The position numbers and the translations under genes are program-made. Positions 3,071 through 62,800 of a stretch of 64,000 nucleotides of DNA are shown here, one piece after another. The notes beneath the pieces were generated by a model. The model was not told the origin of the DNA, made no database searches, and saw nothing but the letters and a program-made list of their open reading frames with translations. The stretch lies in the NCBI GenBank assembly GCA_025765615.1, contig JAIVFJ010000327.1, positions 1 through 64,000 of the forward strand, given 5' to 3'. Each line of letters opens with the position of its first letter. Position 1 is the stretch's first letter. The DNA comes from Zopfochytrium polystomum (taxonomy: Eukaryota > Chytridiomycota > Chytridiomycetes > Chytridiales > Chytridiaceae).

Positions 3071-3142
3071 GGGGGTACATATCAGTGGTAGATAGCTCGC
3101 TTTGCATGCCAGATGCTGTGGATTCAAGCCCCACTACCTCCA
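3071..3142 (+). tRNA. tRNA-Ala(UGC)-like sequence, probably a relic or SINE head
   Basis: The segment folds as a near-complete cloverleaf. The acceptor GGGGGTA (3071-3077) pairs with TACCTCC (3135-3141). The D stem TATC/GATA encloses AGTGGTA. The anticodon arm is CTCGC-TTTGCAT-GCCAG with anticodon TGC and one C:C mismatch. The T arm is GTGGA-TTCAAGC-CCCAC with one A:C mismatch. The D-arm and T-arm sequences match internal promoter boxes A and B. Discriminator base A follows. The mismatches in two stems and the weakened A box suggest a decayed copy or the head of a tRNA-derived SINE rather than a working gene. Confidence 0.6.
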
Positions 3143-3727
3143 TTGCTGGAGTAGGGGTGTCATTATGTCTCCCAGCAACGCCACCTGAAAGAATTTGTTG
3201 GGGTGGATTGTCTATGGTTCGTGCTGCTGTGGAGATGGAGGTAGTGCACTACTGAAGGTGGTGGTGATGGGAGGTTGAGTTTGGCTCCTGTCGGTCTTGT
3301 GTTTGTCTTTATACAAAACTGTTACAAGGACCATCACTTGCAGAATGCTGCAAGTCATCCTTGCACAAGGTGCCCCTGTGCACCACAGTGTCAGGTCAAA
3401 GCTCCTGCTCACTGCTTACCTCAAAAGACCCAAAAACTAACACCACCTGAACCTCTCCCGACTCTGTGCCTCCTAGGTACTGTGACTCAGAGATGTCTCC
3501 CAGGCGGTGCCACTGCCTCCCAATTAAAAGGGGACAGCTGGGCAACCCTCAGCAGTTAAGCAAGTTGGAAACAGCGCACCCACGCATGAAAAAACAAGCA
3601 CATTGACTGTCTGTCTCGATCCCCAACAGCAGCAAGCACACCTTAGCAACACCAGGCCGGGAACCACTGACATCGCAGTCATTGATCCGCACCATCGACA
3701 CCACCCTGGCCCGCGACTGTGCCACAT

Positions 3728-3778
<51 letters not shown>

Positions 3779-3935
3779 GTCTGTCTGTCGCTTTGTCTCT
3801 CTTGCAACCCTGTCCAGCCGTGCACTGGCCACTTCTTTCCCCGTCACACACATTAAAAAGACGAAGCAGGAAACAAGAAAAAAAAAAAAAAGTCAAAAAA
3901 AAAACCAAAAAGTCAAAAGTAAGAGAAAGGAAAGC
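3143..3935. repeat. Upstream region with (CT)n microsatellite
   Basis: A CT-rich microsatellite with a short GTCT tail occupies about 3729-3790. Two A-rich runs follow at about 3877-3905, ending 30 bases before the start codon of the RING gene. This probably forms its promoter and 5-prime leader. No other gene is visible. Confidence 0.6.
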
Positions 3936-6144
3936 ATGATGGCCCAAGGCGACGCCGCCGGCCCTGTTGCTGCCCCCGCCGCCGCCGCCAGAAGCTCCGC
4001 CTCCTCGTCCTCCTCGCCCGGACCCTGCGTCGGAGTCAAGGTCAAGAACACTGCCACAGGAAGCGAGTGGCGGTTGACGGTCCCGACCACCCACCCGGAC
4101 TGGTTCGCAAAGGTCCAGCACACCGCCATCCATGCCATCAAAGTCGATGCCGCAACCGCAGAAGAAGAAGACGATCAAGAACAACCCACCACCAACAACA
4201 AGAGCGCCAATAACAGAAAGAAAAATTCTCACCGCACCGCCCCGCCGAAACTCCGCCTGGTCGTTGACGGCACGCCAGTCAACGGCCTCAACTTTACACG
4301 CCCCCGCGCGCGCATCCTCCCGCGCCTCGCTGCGGACCACCTGGACCGCTCGTTCCTCGACATTTACAACGACACCATCCTCGTCGCGCAAGACCGCTCC
4401 GCCCCGCCAGCCGTGCACGGCGGCAACTACGACAGCAAGCTCTCCTTTTTCGACGGCGCCTTCAACGTGAGCTTCCAGCGCACCATCCGCGTCCCTGACG
4501 ACGGCAAGGCCCGCTCCCTCCCGCCGGGCCTCGGAACCTTCCCCCTCGCCCAGCTCGACGACGGCTCCGTCGCGCTCCCCATGTACCAGGCCGAGGCCAT
4601 GTGGATGCTGTTCGACTGCAGAGCTCGGTCGGCGTTTGCCGTCAAGATTGGCGTCGGCGCCATCAATGCTGTGGACGGCCGATATTGGAAGGATAATGCG
4701 GCCGGCAACAACCACGAAGACGACGACGACGACGACGCTATGGATGAGGACGGTCCCGAAGAGGCCCCGCTGCGCCAGGGACGGGCGCAGAACTATGTCG
4801 CGTTCCCGCACCAGCCGTGGCTCGACGGGGTTGTTGTCCCACGTCGCGGCAACAAACAAGAGGAGGACGTTGTGCGCCAGTTTGTCGCCATGCCCCTGGA
4901 CAACCCCGCGACCATTGAGCGCCAGCTCAAGGAGCAGGGCAAGATTCCAAAGGTCGAGGGCGGCCTGCGCATCGACGTGTTCCCGCTCCGAGAAACGGAA
5001 TGCACCGTGTGGATCCCGCGCTTGCGGCGCACCGTGCCGACCAGCACGACCCCGCGCGAAGCAGGCCTCGTCGAGGGCGACGCCGTCGTGTTTTTCGGAC
5101 CCTCCATCCGCGAGGCCAAAGTCACACTCGCGGAGCTGGGTTTGGACGCCGCCAAGGTCGAGTTTGAGTTTGACGGAAGCTGGTTTGGCTGCGTCTGCGT
5201 AAAGACGCTTTTCGGCAAGACGCTGGAGTTTGACCTGGAGACGAGTGACATCACGGTCGAGGAGATGAAGGAGATGATTCAGGACAGAGAGGGCATCCCG
5301 CCGGATCAGCAGCGCCTTATTTACGCCTGCAGGCAGCTCGAGGACGGACGCACCCTCGCTGACTACGGCGTGGAGCCGGAGTCCATCATCCACCTTGTGC
5401 TCCGTCTGCGCGGCGGAGGCTCCTTCGAAGGCGCCCACGACATGGGCTTTGGCGCCGGCGGAAAGATTAAGCAAAAGGTGTACACGGACCCCACGCCGCT
5501 GTCGCAGTACTGCCTGGCCCGCGCGCAGCGCTGCCGCGTCAGCGTGCTCAACACGATCCTCTGGCCCGTGTACACGGGCCGCCCCGCCCCGCCCCCCGTC
5601 GTCTCGCACGAGCTGTACGTCCAGTACGGATTCCCGTGGTACGCCCTGTTTGACCAGGATCAGGACGCCGTCACACCCGCCGCCGTGGACAGCCTGGTTG
5701 CGGCGGTTAAGTCCATCGCCGAGTGTGCAGCGAAAGACCGAACGGACGTTGGCCTCGGCACCGATGTTTGTTGCATCTGCATGAATGCAGAGTGCAATGT
5801 GGAGTTTAGTCCGTGTGGACATCGGGTAGGACAGAGGGGGGTTTTTTTTCCTTTTCCTTTTTTGAGTACCTTTCTGACAGCGAATGCCCCCACGGGAAAA
5901 ACAGGCCTGCAGCGACTGCTTCCGACAAGCCGCGACGAACGCTACGAAGGCGGCGGCCGCGTTTGCGGCAGTGGGACCGGCTCCGACCAAGTCTCACCCC
6001 CTCCAGTGCCACCTGTGCCGCGCGGAGGTCCGGACCGAGCAAGTCCGTTTCTTGGGCGCTCACCTCTCACTTGCTGACGTTGGCAAGGAAGCGTACACCA
6101 GCGACGCGGAGGACCCGACGGTGGTGCGCCTCATCTACCGCTGA
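3936..6144 (+). CDS. Ubiquitin-like domain plus C-terminal RING protein, probable E3 ligase
   Basis: Two exons, 3936-5825 and 5905-6144, give a 709-residue protein; the intron begins GTAGGA and ends ACAG. The first ATG downstream of the CT and A runs was chosen because the open frame above it only reads microsatellite. Residues from about 419 to 496 form a ubiquitin-like fold close to ubiquitin itself, with [33 protein letters not shown] and a terminal LRLRGGG. After the intron the RING is completed: CCIC, CGHRACSDC, then CHLC near the C-terminus, giving the C3HC4 spacing. The approximately 410-residue N-terminal region has no domain I recognise, and includes an acidic run of D residues near 265. 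A RING binds E2 enzymes; with an internal ubiquitin-like domain the likely role is a ubiquitin ligase or adaptor. Codon use is GC-rich, like the host-type genes here. Confidence 0.88.
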
Positions 6145-19475: not shown

Positions 19476-20100
19476 GTGAGCTGGGGGTTGCAGTCCCCTG
19501 GTGTGTGACAGGAGGTTGAAGTCCTCTTGGACATCATGGCAGTGTGCTGGGTTCAATCCCCAGTGCACCTCACCATTCTGCATGCTGCTTAGGTTGGACT
19601 GGGTAGGAGCCACTTGGTGATGGAAGGATAGAGGGTAAATCTGTGGTGGTGCCTCTAGGTTCCTGTCAATACATCTAGTCAAATCCTGGTCTCTCAAGGT
19701 GATATGAATGAGCTGGCTGGTCAGGTACTGCTGCAGAAATGGTCTCTCAGGTATGCCCCCATCCCCCTGGTTGTTGGCTCCTGTGGCCTCTGGTGGGCCT
19801 GGTCTTCACTGGGTTCAGACCCTCTTTCTCTCAGATTAATGCCTGTGATGTCATGGTGTCACACTTGTGTGTGGGAGTGGGTTTTAACCTTCCTTGCTTC
19901 TAAGATAGGGGATTCCTCTGGCCTGGTGAGGCAGATGTCTGTGTCCTAGTAGGATGAAGCAAGAAGAGTCCCACTGTCTCCCACCCTGTGTGCCCCCTCC
20001 TTGGATTGAGTTGGAACCTCTCTTGGGAGTGAGACAAGATGTGTCTGGTTCTGTTAAGTGGAAAACAGTTCTGGTTTGAACCAACAGGCATCTCTGCACA
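19476..20100. other. No gene; one B-box-like element
   Basis: Contains GCTGGGTTCAATCCCCAGT at about 19548-19566, a good match to a tRNA T arm and RNA polymerase III B box. No full cloverleaf could be built around it. The remainder shows no recognised gene. Confidence 0.35.
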
Positions 20101-35150: not shown

Positions 35151-38100
35151 ATGACCAGCCAAACAACTGCGTGGATTGTGGCATTTGTTTACAAGGACCT
35201 TGGACGGAAGATCCACATTCCAACCAACACAAGTTTTGATGGCTTGCTTCAGCTTGTGGCTGCAAGGTTCCAGATCTCTCGTGCCATTGAGTTGGTGTAT
35301 GTGGACTCTGCCACCAGTGATGCAATGGTCCTTGACACCAGTGATGATCTGCCCAGTCTGCTTTCTCAGAATTACAAGTGGAAAGTAAGGTTCTTCCTTT
35401 TTTTTGTCCTTGATTCTCTCGTTGTTCCAGTGTGAATTGAACCTCATGTAATTCAAGGTGCTCACCGTGAGCTCCAGTGCCACTGGAAATGTCGCCCCTG
35501 CTGCTACTGGCACAAGCAACAATAGTGTTGAGGCTGGTTCTGCTCCTCCTGCTGCTCCTGCTGCTCTTCCTGCTCCCACCATAGCTTCTGATGGCAACTC
35601 AGCTGTGGCAGCCACTGTCAGTGACAGCTACGACAAGAGTCTTCCACTGAAGAAAGGTGAGGAACCTGATTCAAATCGTTGCCTCAATGGCTCATGGCCA
35701 ATTCTTTGGCGTGTTTTCTTTACTCTCCCAGATAAATGGATTGAGCTGATTCCAGATGACTGGGAATGCAAAAGCAGTGTTCAAAAACACCCCTTTTTCA
35801 TCAGGTTTGTTCCTCATTGTGCTTCTACCTGTGGCTTGCTCTCAAATCCATGTCAGCTACCGGCAAGCTTCTGAGGCAGGTTTTGCGAGGAACCTGTTTG
35901 ACAGAATGAAGATCACCCTGTTGGAAGCTTACACTGGGTCTGTTCTCACTGAGGAGTCCAGGATGGGTGGAAGACATGCTTTTTGGGATGCAGAGTGCCT
36001 GGCCTATGCCCAGGATTGGGGAATCAACTTCATGGCTGGACTGTTTCACTCCTCAGTCATCATTCTCCTGTGTTCTGATGCAAGCATGATGAGAATGCAA
36101 AAGGCTGACAAAGAGCCGGACAACTGCTTGCTAGAAGTGAGTTTGTTATCCCCATCAGTATTCCGCTCTGACAAATACGTTTAGTGGGAGCTGGCACTTC
36201 AGATGAAAAAAGAAAGAGGCCATGACATCCTTCCTGTTCTTCTTTCATGCCGAGATGAGGCGACCTTGGCAAATGGCAAAAAGGCAAAGGTCATGGTGGA
36301 CTTCAGCACCTTTGATCTCAAGAAGTTTCCTGACCACCCCCATGCCCACCCTTTAAGTCCTGGCCTCCAATCTGTGTCTGAAACAATCAAGATGATTTTA
36401 GACCTGAATGGGCCAAAGGCAAATCCTGAGAATGATGTAATGAAGTGCGTGCCAACATCTTTTTTTTTTTTTAAATTGCCTCTCTTGTTACTTACACATG
36501 CCCTTCTTTTAACCTTCACAGGATTGTGACTGAAGCCAGAGAAGTGTACAGTCGCCGTAAGGCTGAATTGAAAACTCCAAGTCCAAGCCAAGATATTTCA
36601 CTTTCCAGATCTAGTTTGGCTGAATTGGAGAACTGGTTGTCTCCCTTGTCTGAATTCATGGATCTTGAGAGGGAGGCTCTCCTGAAGAATGTGCTTTCTG
36701 GATCCAGGGTGTGGTTGCTCAAGAGAGTGTTCAAGTTTCTTTCTCCAGATGATCCCTCTGCTGCCAGTGCCAACAGGGTGATGTGGTTGAAAGGTGTGGC
36801 TGGAGTGGGCAAGACTGTGATGGCAGCCATGGTCTCCAGGGAGCTGCAGGCCCAGGGGATGCTTGGTGGCTTGTTCTTTTGCAAGCATGATGACGAGCAT
36901 CGCAGCAGCGCTCGAAACCTGGTCTTGACTCTTGTGTTTGGTCTTGCAAAGTTCAGTCTTCAGTATGGAGAGATTCTGCTTCAAGTCAAGCAAGACAATC
37001 CAGATATTCTGTCCAGATCTGTGTTTGAGATGATGAAAGTATTGCTTGTTCAGCCATTGGAGAAGGTTGTTGAAAGCAAGAAGCTGAATGTACCTGTGGT
37101 CCTGGTTGTGGATGCCCTGGATGAGTGTGGAGCCATTGGAAAGAGGAATGAGATTCTTGCAGTCTTTCAGGAACTGAACAGGCTGCTTCCAGTCAATGTG
37201 AAGATGCTGGTGACTGGACGCCCTGAAGTAGATATTGTGAAAGCCTTTGAGAAGATTCCTTTTGAGGAGATTGAGCCAACTGCAGAGGAGAACATCCAAG
37301 ACCAGATTGAGTTCACAAGAAATTTCCTCTGGTCTTCAAATGCTGAGCAATCTGTTGTTGATGAGGGATCTGAGATTCTGGTGTCAAAGTCTGCTGGAAT
37401 TTTTGTCTGGCTTGTGACTGCTTGCACTTATTTGCGGAAATTAGAGACTGAAGAAATCACTCTTGAGCAAATTAAAGACCTTACTGAGGGTGCCAAGATG
37501 GATGGAAGCATTGACTTGATGTATGACAGAATATTCAATGGCATCCTTCAGTCTATCAAAGAGAGTTCTTTGGAAAATCTTCTTTGTGCTGTGTTGTCCA
37601 TCATTGTTCTTGCCTATGAACCTCTGACAGCAGCAGCCATTGTCTCTCTGATGAACAAGGAGAAACCTGAAAATGTGATGAGGTGCATCCGGATGCTTGA
37701 TCCTATCCTTGTGCTCCATGGTTCCACCAAGAAGATTAGAATTTTCCACAAATCTGTTATGGACTACCTGATAAATCCTGAAAGATGCAAGTTGTCTCTT
37801 CAGATTGACTCAAAAAGTAGCCACTCTGAATTTGCAAGGCTGTGCATCAGTGCATTGGACAAAAACCTGAAATTTAATATGTGTGATCTGCCATTCTCAG
37901 AATTCCATTCAGAGATTACTGATTTTGATGAGAAGGTGAAGAAGGGAATCCCTGATCATGTCAGATACGCAGTGAAGCACTTCTGGGAGCATTGCTTTGA
38001 CTCCTCCGTGGAAACTACCAGCAAGAATTTTGAAGTGGAAGAGAATCAACCCTCAGAGGCATTGTCCCCCAAACAAGACACAAAGGCCAAACGAAAGAAA

Positions 38101-40350
38101 TCGTTTTTCAGTTTATTCAAGAAGCAAAGCAGAACAAAAGATATAGCCTGGTCAAGTGCACAAATGAGGAAACATCCAGTCAAGAGTGCTGCCCCTTTGT
38201 TCGTGACTTCCTTCAGCAAATTCTTTCAGATTGATCAGACTCTTCTTGCTGAATTGGAAACATTTCTTTTGCAACACGGACATCACTACTTGGAAGCATG
38301 CAGCTTGCTAGACTCACTCCATTTGGTGATTCCTGCCATGACCAAGCTCCAGAGTCTTGTCACTATTCCTGAAAAGACACAACTGTACACCCTCATGGAA
38401 GACATGAAAAGGGTTTTGCAAAAGTTTCTCATTCCACTCAGGGCATCTGCGTTGCAAGTCTACTTCACTGCTGTTCCATTCTCCCCAAGTGACTCTGAAT
38501 TTTTTAAAACATTTGTTCAGAATGTTCCTAGAAGTGTGTCATGCCCCAAAGTTGTAAAGGGGCAACCACAATCTTGGCCTTCCTGTTTGAATATTCTTGA
38601 GGGACACTCTCTTAGGGTCACCTCTGCAGCATTCAGTCCTGATGGGCAGTTTGTTGTGTCTGGAAGTGGGGACAAGACAGTCAGGATTTGGAATGCTTCC
38701 ACTGGTCAGGAGCTGCATAAGCTGGAGGGACACACTAGGAATGTCAACTCTGCAGCATTCAGTCCTGATGGGCAGTTTGTCGTGTCTGGAAGTGAGGACA
38801 ATACAGTCAGGATTTGGAATGCTTCCACTGGTCAGGAGCTGCATAAGCTGGAGGGACACACTCATGATGTCAACTCTGCAGCATTCAGTCCTGATGGGCA
38901 GTTTGTTGTGTCTGGAAGTGAAGACAAGACAGTCAGGATTTGGAATGCTTCCACTGGTCAGGAGCTGCATAAGCTGGAGGGACACACTAGGAATGTCACC
39001 TCTGCAGCATTCAGTCCTGATGGGCAGTTTGTTGTGTCTGGAAGTAGGGATGAGACAGTCAGGATTTGGAATGCTTCCACTGGCCAGGAGCTGCATAAGC
39101 TGGAGGGACACTCTGATTGGATCCGATCTGCAGCATTCAGTCCTGATGGGCAGTTTGTTGTGTCTGGAAGTCGTGACTGGACAGTCAGGATTTGGAATGC
39201 TTCCACTGGCCAGGAGCTGCATAAGCTGGAGGGACACTCTTATGGTGTCAGCTCTGCAGCATTCAGTCCTGAAAGTCAGTTTGTTGTGTCTGGAAGTAAT
39301 GACTGCACAGTCAGGATTTGGAATGCTTCCACTGGTGAGGAGCTGCATAAGCCGGAGGGACACACTGGTCCTGTCAACTCTGCAGCATTCAGTCCTGATG
39401 GGCATTTTGTTGTGTCTGGAAGTAATGACTGCACAGTCAGGATTTGGAGTGCTTCCACTGGTGAGGAGCTGTATAAGCTGGAGGGACACACTCATTCTGT
39501 CAACTCTGCAGCATTCAGTCCTGATGGGCAGTTTGTTGTGTCTGGAAGTAGGGATGAGACAGTCAGGATTTGGAATGCTTCCACTGGTCAGGAGCTGCAT
39601 AAGCTGGAGGGACACACTTATTATGTCAACTCTGCAGCATTCAGTCCTGATGGGCAGTTTGTTGTGTCTGGAAGTCGTGACAAGACAGTCAGGATTTGGA
39701 ATGCTTCCACTGGTCAGGAGCTGCACAAGCTGAAGGGACACTCTGATTGGGTCAACTCCGTAGCATTCCGTCCTGATGGGCAGTTTGCTGTGTCTGGAAG
39801 TGATGACGAGACAGTCAGGATTTGGAATGCTTCCACTGGTGAGGAGCTGTATAAGCTGGAGGGACACTCTTATGGTGTCAACTCTGCAGCATTCAGTCCT
39901 GATGGGCAGTTTGTTGTGTCTGGAAGTTATGATGACACAGTCAGGATTTGGAGTGCTTCCACCGGCCAGGAGCTGCATCAGCTGTATGGTTTTCAATTCA
40001 CAATGTCTTCTGGATTTAGTGCTGATGGGCAACATGTTGTTTTGAAGGACAGAAATGACAAAAGAACATTTGTCAAGCTTAGAACAGCATTGTTGGTGGA
40101 CAGAAGCGATATCACACTCACAGGTCCAAGCCTGGCACACAATTTTAGTGCACGTAATTTGTCAGGACAGCGACTGCAGAGTGGGGAAGGGGTTCTTGAA
40201 TCTGTGATAAGTGATGGTGTTTGGTTCAACTTCAATGTCACAAAAGTCTGTATCTGGCTTCCACCTGAATTTCGTGGTAGATTCCAGCTCCTCTCAAGCC
40301 AAAATATGTCTACTTTGGGGCCAGGCTTTTCTTCTGCCATACAATTTTGA
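35151..40350 (+). CDS. PB1-like/TIR/NACHT/WD40 receptor (NOD-like receptor)
   Basis: Six exons join in frame: 35151-35384, 35458-35656, 35732-35804, 35857-36136, 36185-36444, 36522-40350, giving 1,624 residues. Residues 1-78 resemble PB1. Residues 79-145 are an Ala/Ser/Pro linker. A TIR domain covers about 160-330: KHPFFISYRQASEAGF, FWDAECLAYAQDW, SSVIILLCSDAS, DNCLLEWELALQ, ILPVLL. WDAEC places Glu (codon 35993-35995) where SARM1-type TIR NADases have their catalytic Glu. NACHT follows: Walker A GVAGVGKT (440-447), Walker B VVLVVDALDE (to 550), then MLVTGRPE. After a helical region with KAKRKKSFFSLF, WD40 repeats start near residue 1038. TIR cleaves NAD or scaffolds signalling; NACHT oligomerises; WD40 senses ligands. 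No membrane segment is seen. Neutral codon use differs from GC-rich neighbours. Confidence 0.92.
38590..39990 (+). repeat. Array of eleven near-identical WD40 repeats
   Basis: Eleven units of 126 bases (42 residues) plus a divergent twelfth. Each unit runs EGH, then three variable residues ending in V or I, SAAFSPDGQFVVSGS, x-D-x-TVRIWNAS, TGQELHK. The variable triplets are LRV, RNV, HDV, RNV, DWI, YGV, GPV, HSV, YYV, DWV, YGV. Residues around the Asp are GDK, EDN, EDK, RDE, RDW, NDC, NDC, RDE, RDK, DDE, YDD. Nearly all remaining bases are identical, so the units are kept alike by recombination while these sites vary. Confidence 0.95.
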
Positions 40351-40758: not shown

Positions 40759-41231
40759 CCTAGACATATCCATCCGGGCCCTACTTAGTGAATTTGGGGC
40801 CACTTAGTGAAAGTGGGGCCACTATCAAGTCCACACTATCAAGTCCACTATCAAGTCCATCAATGAGTCCATTTTGTGTCTGCTTAATTGTTTTTTTTTG
40901 TCAATTTTATTGTTTTTGTTATGGTTTCCATTTGCTATTGAGTCCACACATATGGACTCAATATGGACACAATATGGACTCATATGAGGCCAAGTCTAAT
41001 TGTTTTTTTTTGTCAATTTTTTTCATTTTGTTATTGTTTTCCACCAGGGTCAAAAAAACTAAGTCCAGAGTGACCACCCATTCTTTGAGCTCTCCCACCA
41101 GCACAAAGATGACGTGATACGACATTCTAAGTGTCACATCTCTAAGCTAGAATTGTGAGAGGATTCCGAATCTGCAAAAAAAACTGCGGGTTGATTAGTG
41201 GCAAGCAGGGAATATTGTGAGTTTTTCCGAA
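40759..41231 (+). repeat. Repeat R4, copy 1
   Basis: About 470 bases shared with 45097-45549. It starts CCTAGACATATCCATCCGGG, continues through TGGGGCCACTTAGTGAAAG and several ATCAAGTCCA units, holds two A/T cores of the TTTTTTTTTGTCAATTTT type, and ends GGGAATAT followed by GTTTTTCCGAA. No conserved frame and no terminal inverted repeats are seen. Confidence 0.85.
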
Positions 41232-49773: not shown

Positions 49774-52700
49774 TCAACCGCCCACACCTCGCGCCACGGC
49801 CTCCGCGACCAGCTCCTTGACCCACAGGACGGGGCACGGGTCCCAGTGATCCCAATCCCTCGCAAGCGCCCGCCACGCCCTCCTGGCCTCGACGGCGATG
49901 GACCGGGTCTCGCATCCGTCGTCTTCCTCGTCGTCGTCGTAGCCTGCGGCAGCCGGCGGCGCGTTAGCGGCGGCGAGCGGTGAGTCGAGGGGCGGGACGG
50001 CTGCTGCTGCGAGGACGGTGTGCGCCGCGGGGGGGAGGGCGGCGAGCATCATGGGGCAAGCGAGGCTGGCGGCGCGGACGGCGGCGGCGAGGTCGCGGAG
50101 GAGACGCGGGGCGGGGTTGGTTGTGGCTGTGGCGGGGCAGGAGGGGTTAGAAGAAGAGGCGGGGAAGTAGGACGACGCCGGCGACGACATCGACGACGAG
50201 GAGGAGGGTTGGTCGGCGACGACGGCGGCGGCGGCGGTGAAGGCCGGGTCACGGTCGAGGGCGGCGACGGCGGTGAGGGCGGATGCGGCGAGAAAGGTGG
50301 GGGCGTAGACAAAGCACGGGAGGCCGGTTGCGGCGGCGCAGGCGTCGGCCGGGGCGAGGGAGAGGGCGGCGCTGACGACGGAGACGATGGCGGAGGCGGA
50401 TTCGAGGGTGCCGTGGAGGGCGCGTGGGAGGTCAGTGGTGGGGCGGAGTGGCGGTGCTGTTTGCGGTGGTGGTTGTGGTTGTGGTTGTTGTGGGCAGTCG
50501 TGGGGTTTTAAGGAGATGGAGGAGGAGGAGGAGGGGTTGGCGGTGGGCGGTGTTGGTGCTGCTGCTTCTGCGGCCAGGAAGCGGGCGAGGGTGCGGGTAT
50601 GGAGGAGGATCCAAGAGGCGTGGTAGACGCAATAGAGGGAGAGCATCCAGGGGCGGAAAGTCGGGGCGGGGGTCCAGTTCGCAGGGTTGTTGTTGTTTGC
50701 GGTCTGGGACGACAGCTCCTGCTGCTGCGAGGGTTGCGGCGTGTGCGGGGTCTGGGACGTTTGGTTCTGCTTCCTGCTCTTGCGATCCTTTGGTGGCGGG
50801 GGCGGCTTCTGGATGATCTCGACGACCGAGTCCGGGTGGATGCTTTGGGCGAGGTCGGGCGGCAGCGAGAGCGCCCAGTTTATGAGCCGCCTTTCGAGGC
50901 AAAGCATCTCGTCGGCGACGGCGCCGTCTTCGGCGAGGGGGGCGGCGGCGGCGGAGGACTGCGTGCCGATGCGGACAATGTCGACGTGTATGGAGACCAG
51001 CTCAAAGAAGCGGAGCGAGTGATTCCCCGAGGGCATCGGGGTCAGCTTGCCGACGTCCGACGGGTTCATGGAGAGCCACAGGTCGTCGGAGCAGAGCGAT
51101 TTTACGTGGTGGTCTTCGCTCATTGCGGGAGAACGGTTGGACAGGATCGAGGCATCTAAGAGAAAGTATTGCGAAGCAGCAAAGCGGGAAGATACGTGGC
51201 AGTGTGAGCAAACTACAAAAGAATGCCAGCCAAAACGCAAAAGGTCAAAGTAAAAGCACGCTACATCGCTGTGTGACAATGCACACCCACCAGCACCGCC
51301 TTCGGGACTCCCTTTCCACAGGTGAGAGGACTGGGAGCTCGTCTGGGTCAATCTGCACTTTAAGGTACAGCGCCTGGGTTTGGTTGTGTTGGGAAAGTGA
51401 AAGATTCGACTCAGACATCAAAAAAAAAAAAAAAAAAAAAACGCGACGTCAACGCCATCCCGTCCCAAGTCCAAAACGACCTACCATGCGGCACGCGGCA
51501 CCAAACAACATTCGGGAGGCCGGGATCTTCCCGAGATCTTTCAGAGGGGGGTTTTTTTTTCAAGTTGAAAGATTAAGGTTAGATGGGGACGAGATCCACG
51601 TTGGCAAAGAGCGCGTGATCGTCGTACGGAAGGAGAGTTCCGCCAGAATGAGCAGCGTCTGCAGGTGCTCCAGCGACGGCGCGTCGCAAGCCTCCAGGAC
51701 CTGCGAGCGCGCAAAGTCGTAGTAGTACGTCAGGACACTGTTCGGGAGGCTTCGCAGCGTCGATTCGGTGGCGCCGACTGCGCAGACGGCGGCCCTGCGT
51801 GGAATAGTACGGAGGAGGCACTAATCAGATTTCTCCTCTTTTAATTCGCCAATGGGGGCGGCGGGAGGCGCCCCACTTACTGCAGGTAAGCAGCGACGAA
51901 TCTGCGCTTTGAGAGAAAGGACAGCCGGTGGAGGAGCGGAAGGAAGCAGACGGACGAGCGGAAAGAGGCTTCGGTGAGGATGTCCTGTTCGTGGGCGTCT
52001 GCGCCGGGGCGGGCTGGGAGGACCGTGTTGAGGGCGGCAGGCGAGGCAGAGAGGATGTCGGCGGCGGGGTAGTGTCCCGGGCTGCATAAGTTTTCGGGCA
52101 GGCTCGCCTTGAAAAGCATTTCGTCCAGGGTGAGCGGGGTGACGCGCCAGACGGGGTCGACATTAGCTGGAGGTGGTGTGAGAGAGAATTTTGGTCGGGC
52201 GAAAGCACCCACACATCTGGTCGTCCCAGTGCTGGCGGGCCGCCACGATCTCGCGCTTGTGCTTGAGCGCTAGCTCGAAGTCGATCTTGTTTTTATAGCC
52301 CAGGTAGACGCACAAGGGGGCGCGGCCGCCCTTGAGACAGTTTCCACAGCACGGGCGCACGCCGTCGCACTTGCGCTTCCGGGATCGGCATTCTTCGCAG
52401 GACCTAATGTGCGTTTTGAGGTGTTGGTGTGGGATGGTGGGAAGAGTCGTGCGTGTTACGATCCTTTTCCCCTTGAGACGGCGCCAGTTTCTCTTTCACG
52501 ATCTCTCCAAGGCACCACGGATATCTCGCTAAAACCAATCTCGAAACGCCCTACCATCTTCGGGCACCGCCGCTGGGCAGGACGGTGAGCGGGGCCAGCG
52601 AAAGCGAGGCCAGGGACTGTCTGTCGGAAATTGCTGCGGAGGAGGCGGCGGCAACGGCAAAAGAGGAGGAGGAGGAGGCGGCGGTGGCGGGCAAGGAGGG

Positions 52701-59815: not shown

Positions 59816-62800
59816 TCATTTGTTATACTCTTGATAATGTCGTGGGGAGCGGATAAATACACGATGAAAAAGGAGGATGGAAAAGAAGAGAAAAAAAAAA
59901 GAAAAAAGAAGAAAAAAAAAAGAAAAAAGAACAAAAAAAAAAGAAAAAAGAAGAAGAAAAAAAAAACAAAGGTAGGTATAAACGACACAACCCTGCCGCT
60001 CTAACATCGCGCGCCTCCATCCCGCGCAGCGCGGGGCTCGTGCGCGAAAAAACAGCTCAGGGAGCCACGGGACGGGCCAGCTGCTCACGAGCTCGCGGCT
60101 GGTGGCGACGGTGGTCCAAGTGCGGACGGCGGCGTCGGCGATGGAGGTGGCGGCGGCGGCGGCGTCGCGGTCGCGGTCGCGGTCGCGGTCGCGCGGGTCG
60201 GAGGGGTTGTCGCAAAAGCCGTCGTGGGGTTCGTGGTCGTCGTCGTCGTCGTCGTCGAAGTCGTCGTAGTCGGGGGAGGCGCCGGCGCCCGCGGCGGTGG
60301 GGACGACGCCGGCGGTGGGGACGACGCCAGCGGCGGCGGCGATGGGAGCTGGGAGGACGGCGAGTAGCATGGGGCAGGCGCGGCGGGCCGCACGGACGGC
60401 GGCGACCAGGTCGCGAAGGGTTCTGCGGGGTGGTGGGGCTGGGGAGGCCGGGGCGGATGACGGTTGTTGGGGTGGTAGTGGTGGTCGTGGTGGTGGAGGG
60501 TTGGTTGAGGAGTCGATGGGGAAAGTGGCGAGGGCGGCGAGGGCGGAGGCGGCGACGCAGGAAGGGACGAAGACGAAGCCTGGGAGGTCGGCAGCTGTTG
60601 TGCGAATGGGTGGGGGTGGGGGTGGGGGTGCGTCGTCGTCGTCGTCGTACTCGTTGTATCCGTCGAATCCGTCGTTTTCGACGGTGCTGGTGGGGTTGTT
60701 CTCGGTCGGCGGCGGGGCGAGGGCGGCGGTGACGGCCGAGGCGATGGCGGTGGCGGAGGCGAGAGTGGCGTGGAAGAGGTGCGGGAGGTCGGAGTGGGTG
60801 GTGGAGATAATCGGTCGTGCGGAGTCGGGGGCTTTGAAGGAAGCGGACGAGGACGAGGAGGAGTAGGAGCGAGCGGTGGAAGTGGCTGCTAGAGGGGGTT
60901 TTGCGGCGGCTGCGGCGGCGACGAGGCGAGCGAGGGGCCAGGTGTGGAGGAGGACCCACGAGGCGTGGTAGATGCAAAAGAGGGAGAGCAACATGGGGTG
61001 GGAGCTCGGGGCGCCCGCCGGTGCGTCCGAGGAGGGTTGCGGCAGCGACAACGACGACGACGGATGCGGTGGCGGCGAGGGGCTCCTCTTCCTTTGAAGC
61101 CGCTCCACGACAGAGTCAGTGTCGATGCACAGCGCCAAGTCAGGCGTCAGCGAGAGGGCCCAGTCGGTCAGGCGGGTCTCGAGGCGGAACAGCTCCTCGC
61201 CGGCGAGGGCGTCGGCGTTGGTTTTGGCAGCAGCGGAGGCGAAGGCGGCGGCGGAGAGCCGCTCGCCGACGCGAACAATTTCGACGTGGATGGCGACCAG
61301 ATCGTACAAGTAGCACGCGGAGTTTCCAGTCGGCACAGGGGTCAGCCGGCCGACGGAGGCCGGGTTCATGGAGAGCCACAGTGCGTCCGAGCAGAGCGGA
61401 AAGACTGCGAGGTCGTTGCCCATGGCGGACGTGCGCTTGCTGTGGATAGAGATGTCTGAGATGCGAGGCGCAAAACAAGACAGGAGAGGTGAATTAGATG
61501 AACATCCACGAAGCGCATGCGATGCTGAGGTTCTACCCTACATCGATCAGTAACAGAGCACATCCACCAGCAGCGCCTTCGCGACTCCTTCTCTACAGGG
61601 GATAGGACTTGGGGGAGGCGGTCTGGGTCGATGTTTAGTTTTAGGTACAGCGCCTGGATTGGTTGCGTTGGGCGGAAAGTCCACACAGAGATCAGTAAGA
61701 GGCCGTTCAAAAAAAAAAAAAACAAAAAAAAAAAATCGTCAGCCCCTCACCACTCGACAGGCACAACCAAACAGCATCCGACATGCTGTAACTTTCCCCA
61801 AGTCTTTTTTTTCCCGCACAATCGAAGAGATCCTCGTTAGCCAATACATCAGTTGTGGGGTGGGGGGGGGCTTACGGAATGAGAGGTCCGCCAGAATGAG
61901 CAGTGTCTGGAGGTGCTCCAACGACGGCGCATCGCAAGCCTCCAGAGCTTGTGAGCGAGCAAAGTCATAGTAGTACGTCAAGACGTAATTCGGGAGGTTC
62001 CGCAGCGTCGAGTCGGTGGCGCCGACTGCGCAGACGGCGGCCCTGCAAAGAAGCGAAAGAAAGTAAAAAGGTAGAACGGGTCCCGAGTCAGCTCATTCGT
62101 GCTCGTCCTTTTCTCACGGGGGTGCACCACTTACTGCAGGTAAGCGGGAACGACTTTGCGTTTTGAGAGAAAGGATAGTTTATGGAGGAGCTGGAGGAAG
62201 AAGACGGACGAGCGAAAATAGGCCCCGACGAGGATGTCCTGCTCGTGGTCGTCGGCGCCGGGGCGAACTGGGAGGACGGTGTTGAGGGCGGCGGGCGAGG
62301 CGGAGCGGATGTCGGCGGCGGGGTAGTGGCCTGGGCTGCACATGTTTTCCTGCAGGCTGGCTTTGAAAAGCATTTCGTCGAGGGTGAGCGGAGTGACGCG
62401 CCACGCGGGGTCGACTTTCGCTGGAGGAGGAGTTCCCCAGAGTCATTAGATTTTGAGAGCGATATGCACAAGGAGCTTGAAGGAAAAAGGGGGGGAATCA
62501 GGTGAACTAACCGAGCCGATCGTCCCACTGCTCGCGGGCCGCGACAATCTCGCGTTTGTGCTTGAGCGCCAGCTCGACGTTGACCTTAGTTTTGTGGCCC
62601 ATGTAGGCGCAGAGGGATGCACGGCCGCTCTTCAGACAGTTTCCACAGCACGGGCGCACGCCGTCGCACTTGCGCTTCCGGGATCGGCATTCTTCGCAAG
62701 ACCTGGTGAGTGTGAGTAATTTGGTGCGAGTGAGCGCGTGTCTGTGGCGTCGACCATCGCTCAAAAAGGGACAGCTCCCTCAATCTACCATCTGCGGGTA

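Follow-up and report, generated by a model that had tools for sequence, protein, structure and literature searches.

The 64,000-nucleotide stretch analyzed here, from the genome of Zopfochytrium polystomum of the order Chytridiales in the Chytridiomycota (GenBank assembly GCA_025765615.1, contig JAIVFJ010000327.1, positions 1 to 64,000; the window in the following) contains a gene for a predicted NOD-like receptor (NLR) of the STAND type (signal transduction ATPases with numerous domains). With a probability of roughly 0.7, this gene encodes a nonself-sensing intracellular receptor with the arrangement PB1-like-TIR-NACHT-WD40 and a putative TIR output, which belongs to a large family evolving by birth and death. 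The birth-and-death character is proposed because at least 86 close places are present in the genome and many of the projected copies carry frameshifts or stops.

The six exons of the gene (Table 1) splice to 4,875 nt, coding for 1,624 residues and a stop without any internal stop, and the five introns of 73, 75, 52, 48, and 77 bp all have GT-AG borders. The six exons, their GT-AG borders, and the 1,624 residues had already been described in a sequence-only reading of this DNA. Removal of intron 3 by joining 35804 to 35857 yields FFISYRQASEAG, the TIR opening on which that reading had relied. For the comparison with paralogs, 29 loci were examined by projection, of which L021 and L024 were dropped due to a cut 5′ part and 27 were used. 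Here, the GT-AG borders are kept in 20 (intron 1), 26 (intron 3), and all 27 paralogs (introns 2, 4, and 5); where both borders hold, the introns are 41–78 bp long, their positions being kept while the lengths drift. Because the borders are kept despite the varying intron lengths, the model reflects more than chance. The TIR exons of 73, 280, and 260 nt recur in 17 of the 27 paralogs, with small differences in most of the remaining ones. Of 22 translatable loci, 13 are stop-free in projection and the remainder contain frameshifts or stops, some of them perhaps due to the crude projection method.

Furthermore, the annotated Z. polystomum protein P0030 (469 aa, 90% identity over the whole query) combines the PB1-like part, the TIR domain, and the start of the NACHT domain, and single annotated proteins with TIR and NACHT-WD40 are present in other chytrids, e.g., P0004, P0006, and P0011. 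Taken together, the predicted six-exon model is judged to be right. A separate TIR gene standing beside a NACHT-WD40 gene and wrongly fused with it is hardly credible: the model was derived from the DNA, which leaves room for such an artefact, but the paralogs carry the identical exon chain and the proteins of Z. polystomum and of the other chytrids unite the same parts. On the grounds of splice conservation and P0030, this candidate was disfavored.

Within the protein, TIR_2 (PF13676) is matched by the translated exons 3–5 and the first residues of exon 6 with 35.9 bits (E 1.2e-8, cut-off 28). The match covers residues 167–306, inside the region of residues 160–330 to which a TIR domain had been assigned before. 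No Pfam family besides TIR_2 was matched by this region at E up to 1, hence no HET domain. A phmmer search of the PDB with the TIR domain alone returned a single unrelated match (E 1.2), so that a profile was needed. This was built from an alignment of nine sequences with relatives in other chytrids and bacteria, and it matched the structures of Cat1 (1.8e-12), SARM1 (4.6e-9), and Roq1 (4e-7). Three columns of the alignment are invariant, among them Glu262 (9/9), whose counterpart in the SARM1 motif DWVHKE we take to be the catalytic residue. Among the 26 loci from which a TIR was extracted, 24 retain Glu262 and two are out of frame at this point. The ratio of nonsynonymous to synonymous substitution rates (dN/dS) of the TIR domain is 0.09–0.27 in all 17 comparisons with the window gene, the 17 of the 27 paralogs with unchanged TIR exon lengths being used, and third positions change most. 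The TIR and NACHT domains are under purifying selection.

The NACHT part was scanned apart from the WD40 array, which otherwise fills the Pfam hit list. Here, NPHP3_N (PF24883) reaches 91.5 bits (cut-off 24.8), and NACHT (PF05729) reaches 26.8 bits (cut-off 26.7); for the array itself, WD40 (PF00400) scores 502 bits. The NACHT motifs GVAGVGKT and VVLVVDALDE are assumed to be the Walker A and Walker B motifs, respectively. A Walker A pattern is found in 26 of 28 loci, the window gene counted, and the counts for strict Walker B patterns, 1 of 28 and 16 of 30 loci, reflect patterns that are too narrow and are no evidence of loss. Thus, the TIR, NACHT, and WD40 modules named by the sequence-only reading pass their Pfam cut-offs, NACHT only just, and its architecture stands as far as these modules are concerned; what it had overlooked is the PB1-like domain at the N-terminus and the hypervariable character of the WD40 repeats.

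For the N-terminus, a PB1-like domain and hence a predicted architecture PB1-like-TIR-NACHT-WD40 is the best explanation. PB1 is matched by six of seven related N-termini at E up to 0.1 (best 2.4e-6), and an N-terminal profile leads to the PB1 structures of NBR1 (2.2e-5). The genome contains 126 matches to this part, and acidic residues are kept in the N-termini, in an arrangement whose appearance we liken to the OPCA motif. In P0004 of Nowakowskiella sp. JEL0407, several repeated PB1-like stretches ahead of the TIR domain were noticed by eye.

A genome census ruled out that the gene is a single oddity. Its figures are lower bounds, since the listing comprised 150 of the 210 TIR matches and only part of the candidates received a score. 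The count refers to places, and some of these may be alleles that the assembly left unmerged. With the NACHT part as query, 87 matches including that of the window gene were obtained, and PF24883 yielded 150, all above the cut-off. Merged, these correspond to 151 places, of which C542:3236-3406 is a fragment of its neighbor, leaving 150. At least 86 of them form the family of the window gene. In the 1.5 kb upstream, on the same strand, a TIR domain is present at 74 or more of these 86 places and, among the matches listed, at six other places by similarity to the window TIR and at another 36 by Pfam. In total, a TIR domain directly precedes at least 116 of the 150 NACHT places. The sequence-only reading had called TIR-NACHT-WD40 unusual in fungi, which applies to fungi in general, whereas it does not apply to this genome. 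A PB1-like match lies within 4.5 kb upstream at a minimum of 83 of the 86 family places. Six members (Table 1) have a PB1-to-NACHT gap of 222–387 bp, too short for the TIR exons, compared to 884–1,449 bp in the remaining family with one exception of 4,302 bp.

The 36 further TIR-NACHT places may form one family, as suggested by a NACHT frame of 403–408 aa in many of them. The only one that was read, L045 (C57:326900-330400), displays TIR, NACHT, and near-identical ankyrin repeats. The HET domain was found at 28 places of the genome, none of them within 5 kb of any listed NACHT place. As a separate observation, the copies on C66 and C191 as well as those on C83 (79.9 kb, 217.3 kb) have identical TIR scores, and they are maybe recent segmental duplicates or unmerged haplotypes.

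The sensor varies at a few positions of the WD40 repeat. An entropy ranking was obtained from 179 repeats of the window and 29 loci (168 distinct as protein; four arrays were extended by a second stretch, the others are partial). It places positions 7, 25, 9, 6, and 27 first, followed by a fall from 2.6 to 1.4 bits. Certain framework residues were demanded by the extraction pattern; when it was relaxed (191 repeats), the top five positions and their order were unchanged. A numbering shared with the repeats of Podospora is assumed here, based on the conserved positions 8 and 26 and on the HET-E repeat. For the Podospora NWD genes, strong positive selection on repeat codons 7, 9, 25, and 27 is reported in the accessible part of the publication (PMC1805685), and the five most variable positions found here include all four of them. 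The chance of finding all four in the top five of 42 is about 4.5e-5, a rough guide only since the positions are not independent. In 547 within-gene repeat pairs, the proportions of nonsynonymous (pN) and synonymous (pS) differences are 0.523 and 0.280 for the five codons, and 0.049 and 0.086 for the framework.

The synonymous rate (dS) of the framework is lower than that of the NACHT part in all 11 paralogs whose NACHT dS exceeds 0.3, the medians being 0.10 and 0.35; over all 27 paralogs, this holds for 23. Because of this lower dS, the WD40 framework looks homogenised across the family, a sign of concerted evolution. For 64 of 66 close-paralog pairs, the hypervariable residues agree in order no better than after shuffling, and two pairs keep some order. 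This test was run over all offsets with shuffles, as a same-index comparison (0.175 vs. 0.173) could be blurred by offsets. Identical repeats are common to a few recent duplicates. This indicates that the candidate recognition residues are reshuffled while the machinery is kept. The broken copies and near-identical duplicates would also be expected from a selfishly expanding repeat family without an immune role, in which the WD40 variation is repeat instability. This is very improbable, given the low dN/dS of the TIR domain in the 17 comparisons and a variation focused on five codons beside the conserved positions 8 and 26, a pattern not expected from neutral instability.

Mechanistically, the array of 11 repeats would sense a nonself or modified-self protein via residues 6, 7, 9, 25, and 27, whose variation is observed and whose binding is presumed. 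Ligand binding would then release the NACHT switch and result in nucleotide exchange and oligomerisation, as suggested by the family. Oligomerisation would gather the TIR domains, and with Glu262 either NAD+ may be cleaved or a nucleotide signal may be made, which would lead to cell death or growth arrest. The PB1-like domain may contribute head-to-tail polymerisation or the recruitment of a partner. New specificities would arise from a family-wide exchange of repeats together with selection at the five codons, a part of the mechanism that the sequences support. LSDAT_euk, a possible decoder family of the TIR product, was not matched in the genome by a profile that gave no match in the controls either.

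The sequence-only reading had proposed an innate-immune or allorecognition receptor with a TIR output. Here, the nonself role is retained, the WD40 variability being as in fungal allorecognition NLRs, and the gene proves to be one of a very large family, which had not been part of the proposal. A dedicated allorecognition receptor like het-e or het-d, acting between strains of one species, would fit the finding that the same WD40 positions are hypervariable as in the Podospora NWD genes and that concerted evolution is likewise indicated; it is nevertheless unlikely, as the number of TIR-NACHT places, at least 116, is far higher. In the accessible part of a mycovirus survey, double-stranded RNA is reported as purified from Z. 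polystomum strain WB228 (PMC7482067), from which the strain of the window may differ.

Several observations weigh against a nonself receptor with an enzymatic TIR output. The Trp of the WxxxE motif, which presumably precedes the catalytic Glu of TIR domains, is Asn here and Ser in L032, L033, and L035, and with Asn or Ser at this position catalysis by the predicted TIR domain is not certain. The Trp is possibly not required, because it is also absent from the bacterial/metagenomic proteins P0027 and P0028. NACHT passes its cut-off by a narrow margin, and PB1 stays below its own in the window protein (20.7 and 21.9 bits, cut-off 23.6). Besides, when scanned as a whole, P0033 lacks a PB1 match up to E 0.1, and P0030 reaches only 15.6 bits. 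Regarding the sensor, pN exceeds pS in a few framework codons as well, such as 31–34 and 40, where the values are low. Among close paralogs, the framework dS is above the NACHT dS in three of 27 and equal in one, and the arrays of L018, L023, and L030 are poorly homogenised.

The replacement of the Trp before Glu262 would also fit a TIR domain that is a non-enzymatic scaffold, recruiting stand-alone TIR proteins of the genome which carry the output. Among the matches listed, a NACHT place is missing from the 3 kb downstream of 46 of the 85 Pfam TIR places, and 23 of these 46 score 66–86 bits, far above the NLR-borne TIR. Such a scaffold is rather doubtful, however, since Glu262 is present in every aligned TIR of chytrids and bacteria and in nearly all loci with an extracted TIR, and part of the 46 places may have a NACHT outside the listed matches. 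Regardless of the output, these 46 places, e.g., on C241 (four places), C162, C52, and C415, possibly represent stand-alone TIR genes.

Compared to known systems, the predicted chytrid receptor shares with the plant TIR-NB-LRR proteins such as Roq1 the N-terminal TIR, the nucleoside triphosphatase (NTPase) switch, and the repeat sensor. The plant proteins are built with NB-ARC and LRR, whereas the chytrid protein has NACHT, WD40, and a PB1-like front. The proteins P0027 and P0028 likewise have a TIR domain followed by an NPHP3_N-type NACHT, with 24 and 27% identity, and WD40 is absent from the Pfam domains listed for them. SARM1 has in common the TIR domain with the aligned Glu; it contains ARM and SAM domains and, in contrast to the chytrid protein, no NACHT. 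Among 36 fetched proteins, 19 are clear matches of the TIR profile, some of them partial domains, and P0014 is weak. The clear matches include Zopfochytrium, Nowakowskiella, Cladochytrium, Rhizophlyctis, Chytridium, Siphonaria (a record marked unverified), Chytriomyces, and two bacterial/metagenomic proteins; of the ten hits from basidiomycetes or ascomycetes, not one reaches E 1e-3 or better with the profile. P0010 from Nowakowskiella sp. JEL0078 contains two TIR matches in one protein (residues 109–268 and 682–787).

The NWD/HNWD proteins of Podospora anserina (het-e, het-d, het-r: HET-NACHT-WD40) share a TIR-related N-terminal output domain and NACHT and, according to the accessible part of PMC1805685, near-identical 42-residue WD40 repeats with variation at 7, 9, 25, and 27 and concerted evolution. 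In contrast, the chytrid gene has TIR in place of HET, an added PB1-like domain, and a position 6 that is variable as well, and its at least 86 close places stand against a family of ten in the ascomycete. HNWD proteins are further characterized by their recognition of HET-C (GLTP). In an earlier scan of 49 fungal species, no TIR (PF01582) is reported in the accessible part (PMC2939053, 2010). NLRs with TIR from Chytridiomycota are mentioned in one sentence of the accessible part of PMC9815663, so that TIR-NLRs are in print for chytrids, as a small group, and also for other fungi; PB1, a hypervariable sensor, or such a family size do not occur in that part. For the family scale, PB1, and the sensor pattern, no prior description was found in the literature searched, which was chiefly non-subscription and without the 2020 book chapter cited by PMC9815663. 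The chytrid TIR-NLR kind appears to be already known, and the variant, the scale, and the sensor pattern appear to be new.

Table 1. Features of the gene in the window, and family members elsewhere in the genome that have too little space for the TIR exons.
Feature	Position	Strand	Remarks
Exon 1	35151..35384	+	Start codon; PB1-like domain at residues 13-73 (about 35187-35369)
Exon 2	35458..35656	+	Ala/Pro/Ser-rich linker; length differs from the window gene by a multiple of 3 or zero in 19 of 22 paralogs measured
Exon 3	35732..35804	+	Start of TIR region; length 73 nt for 25 of the 26 paralogs with both borders placed
Intron 3	35805..35856	+	GT-AG in 26 of 27 paralogs
Exon 4	35857..36136	+	TIR core
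Exon 5	36185..36444	+	End of TIR, then linker
Exon 6	36522..40350	+	NACHT, winged helix, WD40 array, C-terminal tail, stop
TIR domain (TIR_2)	35797..36316	+	Residues 167-306; interrupted by introns 3 and 4
Glu262 codon	36134..36136	+	Last codon of exon 4; aligned with Glu of SARM1 DWVHKE
NACHT/NPHP3_N P-loop NTPase	36763..37221	+	Walker A GVAGVGKT, Walker B VVLVVDALDE (presumed), TGRPE
Winged-helix region	37585..37839	+	HTH_TANC1-like, 26.6 bits (cut-off 27)
WD40 array	38596..39981	+	11 repeats of 126 nt; hypervariable positions 6, 7, 9, 25, 27
C-terminal tail	39982..40347	+	122 residues; nothing above cut-off in Pfam
Family members with a short PB1-to-NACHT gap	C63:260572, C79:62901, C9:618113, C144:76979, C257:56594, C182:40466		

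Elsewhere in the window, a ubiquitin-family domain (73.4 bits) is present at 5193-5411 (+) inside the open reading frame 3528-6074. Two tRNA genes were found with Rfam at 777-859 and 3071-3142 (+), and a tRNA-Phe was found by ARAGORN at 19483-19571, which is not among the Rfam matches. Two open reading frames at 49777-51417 (-) and 59819-61537 (-) are similar by eye, as a local duplicate, and neither is matched by Pfam up to E 0.001. Just 3′ of the receptor gene, short repeated motifs around 'caatatggac' and 'atcaagtcca' were seen by eye at 40780-40980.

Studies of fungal innate immunity have dealt mainly with allorecognition in ascomycetes, and HET, the output domain there, is only a remote relative of TIR. 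TIR-based self-defense is well known in plants and bacteria, and an early fungal lineage may rely on it as well. Tentatively, and with less than even odds, a wider joint reading can be put forward. Here, the chytrid would possess a TIR-NLR repertoire on the scale of plants, with more than 100 TIR-NACHT places carrying WD40 or ankyrin sensors. Its putative NADase TIR would be active and gathered by NACHT and PB1, its WD40 repeats would be exchanged, with selection at surface residues as in the ascomycete allorecognition genes, and TIR-NACHT-WD40 would be the older fungal form. If this is true, HET-NACHT-WD40 would be the derived form, TIR having diverged into HET. With at least 116 TIR-NACHT places and HNWD-style sensors, the enzymology of TIR in fungal self-defense becomes testable, and so do the use of large NLR repertoires for defense rather than allorecognition and the descent of HET-NLRs from TIR-NLRs.

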